This document shows positions 54,924 to 60,397 of a DNA stretch of 64,000 nt, in pieces (the first letter of the stretch is position 1; each line of letters starts with the position of its first letter). Made by a program: the position numbers and the translations under genes. The stretch lies in contig NZ_FOKZ01000004.1 of the NCBI RefSeq assembly GCF_900112285.1, positions 62,001-126,000 of the forward strand, written 5' to 3'. The stretch is from Polaromonas sp. OV174. GTDB lineage: Bacteria > Pseudomonadota > Gammaproteobacteria > Burkholderiales > Burkholderiaceae_C. The notes under the pieces were generated by a model, which saw only the letters and a list, made by a program, of their open reading frames with translations, did not search any database and was not told the DNA's origin.

Positions 54924-55817
54924 TTATGCTTTTACGCGGTTGACCAGCACGATGCCGGCGGCCACCGTGGCCAGTGCCGCCAGCAGGCCTGGCGTGACGC
55001 TTTCACCCAGCCACAGCGTGCCAAACAGCAGCGCAAACAGCGGCGTGAAAAATACAAACACCGAAAGCCGGGTGGCGGGATAGCGCCCCAGCAGCCACAT
55101 CCAGGCCAGGTAGCTGGCAAACGCGCCAATCACGGTTTGCAGCAGCAGCGAGCCAAGGGCAAAGGGGCTGAATTGCCAGACCCAGACTTCGCCCAGGCCC
55201 AGGGACAGGGCCGGAAATATCAGGGCGCTGACGGCCAGTTGGTAAAACAGCAATTTTTCCGCCGAGATCCGGCTCAGCCCCGAGGCGCGAATCACCACCG
55301 TGGTGAGTCCCCACAGCAGGCCCGCCAGCAGGCCCAGCAGATCGCCGCGCGCGGTCAATGCCGCGCCGCCGGCAAAGCCTTCACGCAGGGCAAACACCAC
55401 CGCTACAAAGGCGCCCAACAGCCCCAGCCACTGCAGGCCGCGCAGTCGCTCGGACTTGACCCACAAGGGCACCAGCAGCGCCACCCAGAACGGCGAGGTG
55501 TACAAAAACACCGTCAGCCGCGAGGCCGTGGTGTATTGCAGCCCCAGGTAAATACAGGCGAATTCCGCGCCGAACAGCGCGCCCGCCAGCAGGCCGGCGC
55601 TCAGGGAGCCGTCGCGGCTGAACAGGGGAATACGCCGCCAGGCACACCACAGCCAGAGCAGCGCCGTGGCCCCCAGCAAGCGCAGCGAGGCCTGGAATAG
55701 CGGCGGTATTTCGGCAATCGTGGCCTTGATCAGCACCTGCTGCAGGCCCCAGAACAGGCAGCAGCCCAGCAGCAGGGACATGGCGAAGCTGTCGAGATCG
55801 GTTTTGCGTGTGCTCAT
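54924..55817 (-). CDS. EamA/DMT-family transporter
   Basis: 297-residue inner-membrane protein with about ten hydrophobic helices in two EamA repeats (G-C-C-L-F-W-G-L-Q-Q near the start, G-L-L-W-G-L-T-T-V-V-I mid-protein). It is a drug/metabolite exporter or uptake carrier of unknown substrate. I start it at 55817 (M-S-T-R-K-T-D); an in-frame start at 55865 is weaker. It is convergent with the HIU hydrolase gene. The 332 bp upstream hold only IS-flank sequence and a 12-bp direct repeat (GGATTGCAGCTT at 55966 and 56080). Confidence 0.82.
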   Translation of the reverse strand: MSTRKTDLDSFAMSLLLGCCLFWGLQQVLIKATIAEIPPLFQASLRLLGATALLWLWCAWRRIPLFSRDGSLSAGLLAGALFGAEFACIYLGLQYTTASRLTVFLYTSPFWVALLVPLWVKSERLRGLQWLGLLGAFVAVVFALREGFAGGAALTARGDLLGLLAGLLWGLTTVVIRASGLSRISAEKLLFYQLAVSALIFPALSLGLGEVWVWQFSPFALGSLLLQTVIGAFASYLAWMWLLGRYPATRLSVFVFFTPLFALLFGTLWLGESVTPGLLAALATVAAGIVLVNRVKA

Positions 55818-56033
55818 GAATTCAAGGCTTGGGACATGGCGGCTTTCCCCTGCGACATTAGGCATTCAATTGCATTGGTGATTAAGCATAGAACTGCACA
55901 ATCGTTCAGGAAAATGGTTTGAAGACGCGGTTTTTGCCGTCAGGTGGCGGATCCTTTTAATCATTGGATTGCAGCTTTCACTGATATTAAGAAAACCGTT
56001 GCAGTTTGTGTGCCCCCTGCCGCCGAAAGTTTC

Positions 56034-57750
56034 TCACATCCGGATGTGGAGGGTAGGGACGCGCCTTTGTTGGACGACCGGATTGCAGCTTGGATTCAAC
56101 CGGTCGAAGCAACACACTAAAAGCTGCGCAAGCAGAAGGAGTGTTGCAAATGAAGCAAAGACGCCGGATTTACTATACGGATGGCCAAAAGGCGCTGATG
56201 TGGGAGCGCTGGAAGAAAGGAGAATCTCTCCAGCAGATAGCTCAATTGTTTGATCGAGAGCACTCGTCCATTCAGCATATTTTGGCGGAAACGGGTGGGA
56301 TACGTCCGGCAGTGCGCCGTCGCTCACGTTTGGCCCTGACCTTGCCCGAACGCGAGGAAATCTCACGTTCGGTAGTGGCAGGGCACTCGATCCGGTCGAT
56401 TGCAGTCACGCTCGGTCGAGCGCCTTCGACTATCAGCCGTGAGATCAAGCGAAACGGTGATCATGGCTGCTACCGGGCGACTCAGGCTGACCAAGCTGCG
56501 TGGGACAGGGCACTCCGGCCCAAGACCTGCAAACTGGCGCAGAACCGGGCCTTGGCGCGCTTCGTGGCAAGCAAGCTTCAATGCCAGTGGGCGCCGCAGC
56601 AGATTGCCGGGTGGCTAAAGCATACTTACCCGTGCGACGAGGACTCCCGCGTGTCACACGAAACCATCTACCGCAGCCTCTTCATTCAAGCCCGAGGCGC
56701 CTTGAACAAGGAACTTCTGCAACATTTACGGCGCACACGGGCCATGCGCCGTTCGCGCCACCACACGCAAAAGACAGACAACCACGGCAGGATCACTGAC
56801 ACGGTGTCCATTCGCGAGCGACCCGCATCGGTGGAAGATAGAGCGGTACCCGGTCACTGGGAGGGTGATCTGGTATTTGGAAGCCACAACAGCCAGATTG
56901 CCACCCTGGTGGAACGCCAGACACGCTACGTGATGCTGGTGAAGGTCGCCAGCAAAGACACGGAAACGGTGATCAACGCGTTGATCAAGCACGCCCAAAA
57001 ATTGCCCCAGGAGATCTATAAGTCGTTGACCTGGGATCGGGGCAAAGAGATGGCCGACCACAAGCGCTTCACGTTGACCACCGACATCAGTGTTTACTTC
57101 TGCGATCCTCAGAGTCCTTGGCAACGCGGGAGCAACGAAAACACGAATGGCCTGCTGAGGCAGTACTTCCCCAGGTGCCCCGCCGGGCAAAGTCTGGGTT
57201 ACAGCCATTCGACTATTGAAGATGGCATGAATATCCACGTTTACATTGCTTCAAGCTGCAAGACATGCCCGCAGAAATCACAGTGCACTACCGGCAAAGA
57301 ACGCAGAGTCAGACGCTGGGAACACGAAAGTGTGCTCGATACCATGCAGACCCGAATCGATAACAACCGCGACAAGATGAAGCTTAGACGCTGCACGGTG
57401 GAACACGTGTTTGGAACTGTGAAATCCTGGATGGGATCAGTGCACTTCACGATGAAAGGGCTGGCTCATGTCGGCACCGAAATCAGTTTGCACATATTGG
57501 CCTACAACATGCGCCGCGTCATGACCATTCTTGGGATCGCTGACATGATCAAAGCGATAAGGTTGGTGGGGGCATGAGGCCCATGTTTAAACCGTAAACC
57601 GCCTCTGCAAACCCTTTAGGGTCGCATTTGGCACTTCACGGGCACGTCTGCGCAGCAATTTAATCCAGAAACCGGAAGTGCGCTCCGAAAGCGTCACCGG
57701 TGCATGGTGCGCGTCAAAAAAACGAGTTTTCACACAGGCTCGACTGGAAG
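56034..57750. mobile_element. Hybrid IS30/IS1182 remnant
   Basis: The region spans the chimeric transposase plus flanks that belong to no chromosomal gene. I could not find matching terminal inverted repeats, as expected if one end is from IS30 and the other from IS1182. The 236 bp after the gene hold no ORF of note and end near GAGTTTTCACACAGGCTCG, which resembles an IS1182-type end. Limits are approximate. Confidence 0.5.
56150..57577 (+). CDS. Chimeric transposase: IS30 body joined to IS1182 C-terminus
   Basis: 475-residue single open frame of two origins. Residues 1 to about 340 are IS30-family: an HTH region, W-E-G-D-L-V-F-G (D240), L-T-W-D-R-G-K-E (D296) and S-N-E-N-T-N-G-L-L-R-Q-Y-F-P (E330), with the expected 33-residue D-to-E spacing. 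From about 342 it is IS1182/IS4-like: C-P-A-G-Q-S-L, C-K-T-C-P-Q-K-S-Q-C-T, R-R-W-E-H-E and V-E-H-V-F-G-T. The true IS30 C-terminus is missing. The DDE triad is complete, so activity is possible but uncertain. Start 56150 is preferred over 56090. Confidence 0.85.
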   Translation: MKQRRRIYYTDGQKALMWERWKKGESLQQIAQLFDREHSSIQHILAETGGIRPAVRRRSRLALTLPEREEISRSVVAGHSIRSIAVTLGRAPSTISREIKRNGDHGCYRATQADQAAWDRALRPKTCKLAQNRALARFVASKLQCQWAPQQIAGWLKHTYPCDEDSRVSHETIYRSLFIQARGALNKELLQHLRRTRAMRRSRHHTQKTDNHGRITDTVSIRERPASVEDRAVPGHWEGDLVFGSHNSQIATLVERQTRYVMLVKVASKDTETVINALIKHAQKLPQEIYKSLTWDRGKEMADHKRFTLTTDISVYFCDPQSPWQRGSNENTNGLLRQYFPRCPAGQSLGYSHSTIEDGMNIHVYIASSCKTCPQKSQCTTGKERRVRRWEHESVLDTMQTRIDNNRDKMKLRRCTVEHVFGTVKSWMGSVHFTMKGLAHVGTEISLHILAYNMRRVMTILGIADMIKAIRLVGA

Positions 57751-57813
57751 CGGGCATTGCCTTTTGCGATACGCCTGCTCCAAACCAGACATTGGCAAGC
57801 CAAGTTGTAAACC

Positions 57814-59025
57814 TCAGTCTTGGAATCGGGCAAAGGTATCTTGCGCCACAGTCACATGGCTCGGGCTCAATTGATCGGGTGCGGTAACTCCCAGCATGCC
57901 CAGCGCACTATCAATTTCTTTCTTCAGAAGCTGCGACGCTTTAATTACTCCTGCGTGCCCGCCTATGGTGGCAGCGTAGTTGAACGGACGCCCTACAAGT
58001 ACGAAGTCCGCCCCAAGCGCCAAGGCCTTAATCACGTCAGTTCCCCGCCTGAAACCGCTATCGATCATCACAGGGAAATCACCAACTGCGCTACGAACGG
58101 TAGGAAGCACCCGCATCGGCGATATGGCCCCGTCAAGCTGACGCCCGCCGTGGTTGGACAATATGATGCCATCCATCCCGATGTCTTTCGCCATGCGGGC
58201 ATCTTGTGGATGCAAGATGCCCTTCAAGATGAGCTTGCCTTTCCATTGTTCGCGGATTCTCTGGACAGCATCCCATGCAAGGTGTGCCCGGCCGCTGAAT
58301 TCGCGGACCACATTTCGCGCAATTACAGGGATTCGTTTTTCGCTGTCGCTGTTTTCAAAGTGCGGAATGCCGGTGGTGGCAATCGTTCTCCCAAAGGTTC
58401 CTAGTGACCAAGAAGGGTGAGACAGGCCTTCCCATAGCAAGCGAAGTCCCGGTTGCAGCGGGCTGTGAAAGTGTGCCCGTTCGTAGTGTTCGGTGCTGCC
58501 ACGCACCGCAACATCAACCGTCACAACGAGCGTTCCGAAGCCCGCGTCTGCGGCCCTTTGTACCAGTGCAGCAATGCGCTCCGTGGTGGGTGGCAAGTAG
58601 GCCTGAAACCAGCTATTGGGCGCCGCACCGACCACTTCTTCGATGCGCATAAGAGATGAACCGCTCATGACCATAGGAATGTTCTCAGCAGCGGCCGATT
58701 CCGCAAGAACCCGGTCACCTCGATACGCCGTTAGTGCGCTAACGGCCATAGGGTTGATGCCAAAAGGTGCGGCCCACTCGTGACCCAATAGTTTCTTTGC
58801 AGTCGTGCGTTTGGAGACGTCACGCAAGATCCGTGGAAGAAAGCGTATTTCTTGAAAAACGGCTTTGTTGTCGACCAAGGATTGGCCAGTTTCAGCAGGG
58901 CTAAAGACGTAGGCAAAAATCGAAGCTGGCAGGTGTACGTGTTGTCTCTGGCGATATAGACGAAGTCCAGCTTGCTGTACCGGCCCTGTGCTTGGGAACG
59001 TAGGTGTTGATACCCGTATGCTCAC
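57814..59025 (-). CDS. FMN-dependent alpha-hydroxy-acid oxidase/dehydrogenase
   Basis: 403-residue member of the lactate/mandelate/glycolate oxidase family. The active-site S-N-H-G-G-R-Q-L-D (catalytic His and Arg) is near residues 296-304, with L-I-L-K-G-I-L (FMN Lys) and D-S-G-F-R-R-G-T-D around it. It oxidises a 2-hydroxy acid with FMN; the substrate is unknown. The start codon and first six or so codons lie within duplicated LysR-gene sequence, so the native 5' end and promoter have probably been lost. Confidence 0.78.
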   Translation of the reverse strand: MSIRVSTPTFPSTGPVQQAGLRLYRQRQHVHLPASIFAYVFSPAETGQSLVDNKAVFQEIRFLPRILRDVSKRTTAKKLLGHEWAAPFGINPMAVSALTAYRGDRVLAESAAAENIPMVMSGSSLMRIEEVVGAAPNSWFQAYLPPTTERIAALVQRAADAGFGTLVVTVDVAVRGSTEHYERAHFHSPLQPGLRLLWEGLSHPSWSLGTFGRTIATTGIPHFENSDSEKRIPVIARNVVREFSGRAHLAWDAVQRIREQWKGKLILKGILHPQDARMAKDIGMDGIILSNHGGRQLDGAISPMRVLPTVRSAVGDFPVMIDSGFRRGTDVIKALALGADFVLVGRPFNYAATIGGHAGVIKASQLLKKEIDSALGMLGVTAPDQLSPSHVTVAQDTFARFQD

Positions 59026-59255: not shown

Positions 59256-59570
59256 ATGGTCAAGAAATCAGCGCGGCGCACCCGCCGCACGCACAGTCCG
59301 GCATTCAAGGCCCGAGTGGCCCTGGCCGCGTTGCGCGAGGACAAGACGATGGCCGAGCTGTGCAGGCAGTTCGAGCTGCACCCCAACCAGATCACCGAAT
59401 GGAAGCGGCAATTGCTTGAGCACGCGGCCGATGCCTTCGGCGGTGGCACCGAAGCAGCCGGGCCGGTGGACCTGGCACCGCTGCACGCCAAGATCGGCCA
59501 GCTGGCGCTGGAGAATGATTTTTTAGAGGGTGCGCTCACCAAGGCGGGATTGCTGAGTGCAAAGCGATGA
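59256..59570 (+). CDS. IS3-family transposase OrfA
   Basis: 104 residues with the helix-turn-helix [17 protein letters not shown] and a C-terminal leucine-zipper-like helix. It binds the IS ends and, in active elements, fuses to OrfB by -1 frameshifting. Start preceded by AAGGAG. Its stop overlaps the orfB start (ATGA). Confidence 0.88.
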
Positions 59571-60397
59571 TCGACCGTGACCATCAACTTTCCATCACGC
59601 GCCAGGCCCCGTTGCTGGGCATGAGCCGGGGCACGGTGTACTACCTGCCCCGGCCGGTCAGCGATGCCGATCTGGCGCTCATGCGCCGGATTGACGAGTT
59701 GCATCTGGAGCCCCCCTTCATGGGCGCGCGCATGCTGCGTGATCAGCTGGACCGTGAGGGCATCCACGTTGGGCGGCGTCACACCAGAACGCTGATGCTT
59801 CGCATGGGCATTGAGGCGTTGGCGCCCCAGCCTGGCACCAGCAAGCGTGCGCCTGGGCAAAAGATCTACCCCTACCTGCTGCGCAAGCTGGCCATCACGC
59901 GCACCAACCAGGTCTGGGCACTGGACACCACCTACATCCCGATGGCCCGCGGCTTTGTGTACCTCACCGCCGTGGTTGACGTGGCCAGTCGCAGGGTGCT
60001 GACCCACAAGGTGGCGATCACGCTGGAGGCCTGTCATGCCAGAGAAATCATCGAAGAGGCCTTTGCCCGCTACGGCACTCCCGAGATCATCAACACCGAT
60101 CAGGGCAGCCAATTCACGGCCATCGAGTTTACCGATGCCGTTCTGGCCAGAGGCTGCAAGCTCAGCATGGACGGGCGCGGGGCCTGGAGAGACAACGTCT
60201 TTGTTGAGCGCGTCTGGCGCAGCGTTAAGTACGAGCGCGTGTACCTCAAGGCCTACGACAGCGTGAGTGCGGCACGCGCGGACATCGCTGACTATTTTGG
60301 CTGGTACAACGCGGCAAGGCCGCATTAGAGCCTGGACCGCATCACGCCCGAGCAGGCCTATCTGGACTTGCTGCCCAAACTGGCCGATGCTGCATAA
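59567..60397 (+). pseudogene. IS3-family transposase OrfB with in-frame stop
   Basis: rve integrase domain with D in W-A-L-D-T-T-Y-I, D in N-T-D-Q-G-S-Q-F and E in F-V-E-R-V-W-R-S. The frame is stopped by TAG at 60326-60328 after A-R-P-H, where the family has Ser (S-L-D-R-I-T-P-E-Q). The same frame then continues S-L-D-R-I-T-P-E-Q-A-Y to the expected TAA at 60395. A single TCG to TAG change would explain it. The shortened product (253 residues) keeps all catalytic residues, so loss of function is likely but not certain. Confidence 0.8.

Follow-up and report, generated by a model that had tools for sequence, protein, structure and literature searches.

An in-frame IS30-IS1182 transposase fusion in Polaromonas sp. 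OV174 as the very probable scar of a deletion between two insertion sequences

The DNA analysed here, called the window, is a stretch of 64,000 nucleotides from Polaromonas sp. OV174 (contig NZ_FOKZ01000004.1, positions 62,001 to 126,000), and all coordinates below are those of the window unless a locus is named. On its plus strand it carries an open reading frame (ORF) of 475 codons at 56150-57577, stop included, which starts with ATG at 56150, ends with a stop at 57575-57577 and is open throughout, with no internal stop and no frameshift. To its left lies an EamA transporter gene, matched in 72 of 87 genomes of the genus (E <= 0.001, some of them over short stretches). To its right lies an FMN-dependent dehydrogenase gene, which has few good matches in the genus, the best other one at 67%. 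Beyond the dehydrogenase gene follow an IS3-family pair, a LysR regulator and a glycine dehydrogenase subunit; the IS3-family ORF pair, at 59256-60328, adjoins the dehydrogenase gene, and its 3' end is probably cut short. A search for an empty site was negative: the flanks of ten EamA loci showed no resumption of the gene order to the right, and the scarcity of good dehydrogenase matches in the genus left no site that could be read cleanly.

The first part of the ORF (56150-57172, plus strand) belongs to the IS30 family, with N-terminal helix-turn-helix stretches and a DDE core. It matched the NCBIfam IS30 profile (NF033563) over residues 93-342 and profile positions 1-242 of 267, with an E value of 3e-79 and 266.5 bits relative to a cut-off of 80. 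D240, D296 and E330 are all present and invariant in an alignment of 22 rows. The second part (57173-57574, plus strand) corresponds to the last 134 codons of an IS1182 transposase, its closest IS1182 relative being 65% identical in protein. As an isolated sequence it matched NCBIfam IS1182 (NF033551) at positions 368-487 of 488 only (4e-31, 108.3 bits), so that no complete IS1182 transposase with a D-D-E of its own is present; it also matched Pfam DDE_Tnp_1_6 (PF13751, 1.8e-18). The whole ORF scored 111 bits with the IS1182 profile, below the cut-off of 270. An alignment of 16 tails shows three cysteines, E77 and K84 (numbered within the tail) to be invariant, and the three cysteines and E77 are found here. 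We take E77 to be the third catalytic residue of IS1182, and the two aspartates presumably fall outside the tail. An earlier inspection of the letters alone, hereafter the sequence-only reading, had described a single 475-codon frame joining an IS30 body with an intact D240-D296-E330 triad to an IS1182 C-terminus. Our analysis bears out the frame, the body and the triad; the IS1182 origin of the tail also holds, with only the presumed third acidic residue retained and both aspartates absent. A search of solved structures gave no match at E <= 1, and the predicted structure of an intact IS30 relative was of low confidence (pLDDT 60, pTM 0.29).

Among 136 BLAST segments between this stretch of the window and the collected loci, which are not independent as some loci overlap, 97 stop at 57171 or 57173, in agreement with the junction near 57173 proposed before. 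The junction codon, 342 (57173..57175, plus strand), reads AGG and encodes R; IS30 relatives mostly have K here, and IS1182 relatives have a variable residue before CPAG. The IS30 part thus ends at residue 341 or 342, a small correction to the 340 residues first assigned to it, and the rest corresponds to roughly the final quarter of IS1182. IS30 relatives run 44 residues beyond K342, with 18 of these 44 positions at least 90% conserved; in the fused ORF these residues are replaced from residue 342 or 343, and the conserved C-terminus of a complete IS30 transposase is therefore missing. A random join of two ORFs on the same strand falls in frame one time in three, so the kept frame is by itself unremarkable.

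The ends of the element tell the same story of two incomplete partners. An intact IS30 left inverted repeat of 26 nt lies at 56090..56115 (plus strand), with one mismatch to the left repeat of a same-genus element (L099) that also has the right repeat. No IS30 right repeat was found in the whole window at up to 7 mismatches. In a scan of 16 loci that allowed up to 5 mismatches, both repeats were present in the relatives L099, L028, L031 and L040, spaced by about 1.2 kb, and in the mini-element L016, where they lie close together. Downstream of the tail, at 57724..57758 (minus strand), is a degenerate IS1182 right inverted repeat, which differs from the repeat of L166 at 5 of 22 core positions and at 10 of 33 in a longer form; the IS1182 repeats were derived from full-length copies in same-genus genomes. 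The stretch 57726-57758 also matched the left end of another IS1182 copy (G005:C9) on the minus strand at 82%, with an E value of 0.10 and among many chance matches. Within 55801-57900 the IS1182 similarity is confined to the tail and the right repeat downstream of it, and neither the left repeat nor the 5' part of IS1182 was found there. Compared with the IS30 family (here a subgroup of about 1.2 kb with repeats of about 26 nt), the element thus shares residues 1-342, the left repeat, the leader and the triad, but lacks the last 44 residues and the right repeat. Compared with the IS1182 family, it shares the last 134 codons and a degenerate right repeat, whereas the first three quarters, both catalytic aspartates and the left repeat are missing. 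Neither family is represented by a matching repeat pair, and the two remaining ends stem from different elements, the left one from IS30 and the right one from IS1182. A 12-nt exact direct repeat, GGATTGCAGCTT, was noticed at 55966-55977 and 56080-56091, the second copy overlapping the start of the IS30 left repeat.

We looked for the fusion elsewhere in genome sets that overlap in part, those of the order and family being samples of larger groups. It is single-copy in its own genome. The 86 other genomes of the genus gave no junction-spanning match, nor did 398 other genomes of the order (the latter at E <= 1e-30, with at most 4 candidates scored per genome). Of 399 family genomes one, the own genome, contained a degenerate junction pattern, the 398 others being negative. 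In the genus, 14 other places resembled 57000-57350 and every one stopped at or before 57173; one IS30 row, at 31%, extended to residue 372 (G032). In the order, IS30 rows stopped at residue 361 or before and IS1182 rows began at 328 or later. Further copies of the junction, which the sequence-only reading had proposed as a sign of mobility, were thus not found in the own, genus and order genomes or by the family pattern. That reading had also held that a single known copy, with decay in relatives, would mark a passive scar, and this agrees with what we found as far as our searches reach.

Wider collections gave a similar picture. In viral contigs the junction pattern matched three times, always within unrelated sequence, and a protein search retrieved 3 IS30 loci ending at residue 342 or 356. 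Among phages 44 records matched, none covering more than 80% of the query, and the best 10 of these 44 matches ended at residue 349 or before. From 140 confirmed relatives in genome contigs 79 loci were retained, with ends at residue 356 or before among the matches listed. By megablast, 0 of 5426 E. coli genomes had a place covering 80% of the query. For plasmids, in searches that each covered 5000 records, places covering at least 80% of the query were seen in at least 2 records with the full ORF, in at least 5 with residues 201-475 and in at least 79 with a 40-residue junction query, the best 15 of which reached query residue 39 at most. Two plasmid rows running far past the junction (H108, H68) contain IS30 sequence and lack the IS1182 tail. 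No fusion was present among the plasmid and phage matches listed, and the titles and abstract openings of the papers listed gave no natural IS30-IS1182 fusion.

IS30 and IS1182 elements do occur side by side. Loci carrying an IS1182 tail (22 viral, 29 from genomes) were checked for a nearby IS30, and 79 IS30 loci for a nearby IS1182 tail; no fusion by position was seen among them. On a Bradyrhizobium plasmid (NZ_CP100605.1, L141:1439-4345, row H41) a separate IS30 lies downstream of an IS1182, both in one orientation. Three pieces of this row cover residues 1-471, but it was rejected as a second fusion, as the elements are separate and their order is opposite to that in the window; its IS30 matches in two pieces, probably owing to a frame break. 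At L083:3563-6026 an IS1182 tail lies about 1 kb upstream of an IS30 in the same orientation, again in the opposite order, at L182 an IS30 piece and an IS1182 tail are near each other on opposite strands, and at L230 and L039 the only matches are short ones outside the element. We found no genome that carries both parents, intact and in the order of the window.

These results point to the fused ORF being the passive scar of a non-transpositional deletion between two elements of the same orientation, a reading to which we give a probability of roughly 0.93. An IS30-family element and, downstream of it, a same-orientation IS1182-family element would once have lain between the EamA and FMN-dehydrogenase genes. 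An illegitimate deletion would then have taken the last 44 codons and the right repeat of IS30, any intervening sequence, and from IS1182 the left end with the first three quarters of its gene, and the frame would have survived the join by a one-in-three chance. Each element lacks the half that faces the other, as such a deletion between same-orientation neighbours would leave. With one end from each of two families, the remnant is unable to move as a unit, and because the conserved IS30 C-terminus is gone, an active transposase is most likely not made.

Deletions that removed part or all of an IS30 copy together with flanking DNA have been reported in E. coli; their endpoints lay far from the repeats and they were judged non-transpositional, whereas transposition-made deletions began at the repeat edge (PMC9333248). 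We regard the present case as an event of this kind whose other end fell within IS1182. As in those deletions, the end is far from the repeats and part of the element is lost; unlike them, this one has its other end in a second insertion sequence and kept the frame. An adjacent deletion made by IS30 itself was rejected, as the IS30 sequence here breaks inside the gene and not at the repeat edge. The sequence-only reading had offered a chance fusion by nested insertion and deletion. Its deletion part agrees with our interpretation, while insertion of IS30 within an IS1182 gene is not needed: no IS1182 sequence was found to the left of IS30 (55801-57900 compared), and a deletion between two neighbours is therefore the simpler account.

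The state of the two halves bears on this reading as well. In a decay test, 85 loci were offered for the IS30 part and 73 rows kept, and 39 were offered for the tail and 29 kept; rows were excluded if they contained stops, had low coverage, were nearly identical to the window or duplicated another row. Of 127 highly conserved positions the IS30 part differs at 2, a number equalled or exceeded in 30 of the 73 relatives, so this part is without sign of decay, a point that counts against a scar. In the tail, 5 of the 40 positions conserved at 90% are changed, which only 1 of 29 relatives equals or exceeds (1 of 6 among equally isolated tail relatives), and none of the 22 conserved at 97%; this is a weak hint that the tail is under relaxed constraint. 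An intact frame and an undecayed IS30 part fit a recent scar without proving one, and together with a perhaps slight excess in the tail they suit a fairly recent event. The 12-nt repeat to the left of IS30 also counts against the scar account, which leaves it unexplained, and so does the failure to find an empty site or a genome with both intact parents in this order. As a scar, the fusion, which shows no sign of function, has little importance beyond a caution, that a long intact two-domain transposase frame cannot be read as evidence that a hybrid works. Were the protein active, the C-terminus of an IS30 transposase would be replaceable by that of an unrelated enzyme.

Production of a fused protein that works in trans at IS30 ends, either as a repressor or as a hybrid in which the tail replaces the C-terminus, is very unlikely even when both forms are added together. 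As a dominant-negative transposase it would bind IS30 ends through its N-terminal part and block related elements. The helix-turn-helix stretches of that part are intact, and the own genome offers further repeats and mini-elements of the subgroup, but a search of this genome gave no intact subgroup element to repress, no promoter-like site was found (shuffles gave a mean of 1.0) and conservation of the fusion was not seen, which makes such a repressor highly improbable. In a working hybrid, the IS30 core would cut IS30-type ends and the IS1182 tail would alter the choice of end or target. The intact frame, the whole DDE triad, the left repeat and the N-terminal stretches agree with this, but a matching end pair and the conserved IS30 C-terminus are absent, the tail is only the last quarter of IS1182, and no second copy was seen in the own genome, the genus, the order or by the family pattern. 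A mobile hybrid should appear in multiple copies or in other genomes, and it did neither, plasmids and phages being judged among the matches listed; the new functional hybrid considered by the sequence-only reading is thus extremely unlikely. The joining of two contigs at a repeat during assembly may be dismissed as hardly credible. The assembly, in 61 contigs, is indeed a draft, but the join sits far from the ends of its 271-kb contig, and no other place in the genome carries a near-identical copy of either half, the best copies of the IS30 half reaching 88% in protein over 57 residues and 85% in DNA over 168 bases beside the junction (contig C42), closer matches being repeat ends only (26-33 bases at 91-96%), and the tail reaching at best 77% in DNA over 110 bases.

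Other IS30-subgroup copies exist in the own genome, where the sequence-only reading had proposed to look for parental elements, but an intact one was not found: all are truncated, stop-bearing or short pieces. The copy on contig C24 starts at residue 88, that on C21 stops at residue 149, that on C42 starts at residue 286, and that on C26 contains 2 stops. The C21 copy (L003:1402-1947, minus strand) joins IS30 residues 1-149 in frame to 32 flanking codons. These codons gave only two plasmid matches, both weak (35-36%, E values of 0.1 and 0.8), which are C-termini of tripartite tricarboxylate transporter binding proteins. Judging from this sequence, in-frame scars of the IS30 subgroup may have arisen twice in this genome. 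Two IS30-derived mini-elements were also observed, each with both inverted repeats and without a transposase, at C14:49442-49513 (L237, L016; 72 bases matched) and at C42:40948-40995 (L238; 48 bases matched). In the C14 mini-element the leader is directly joined to the right repeat, a pattern expected of internal deletion.
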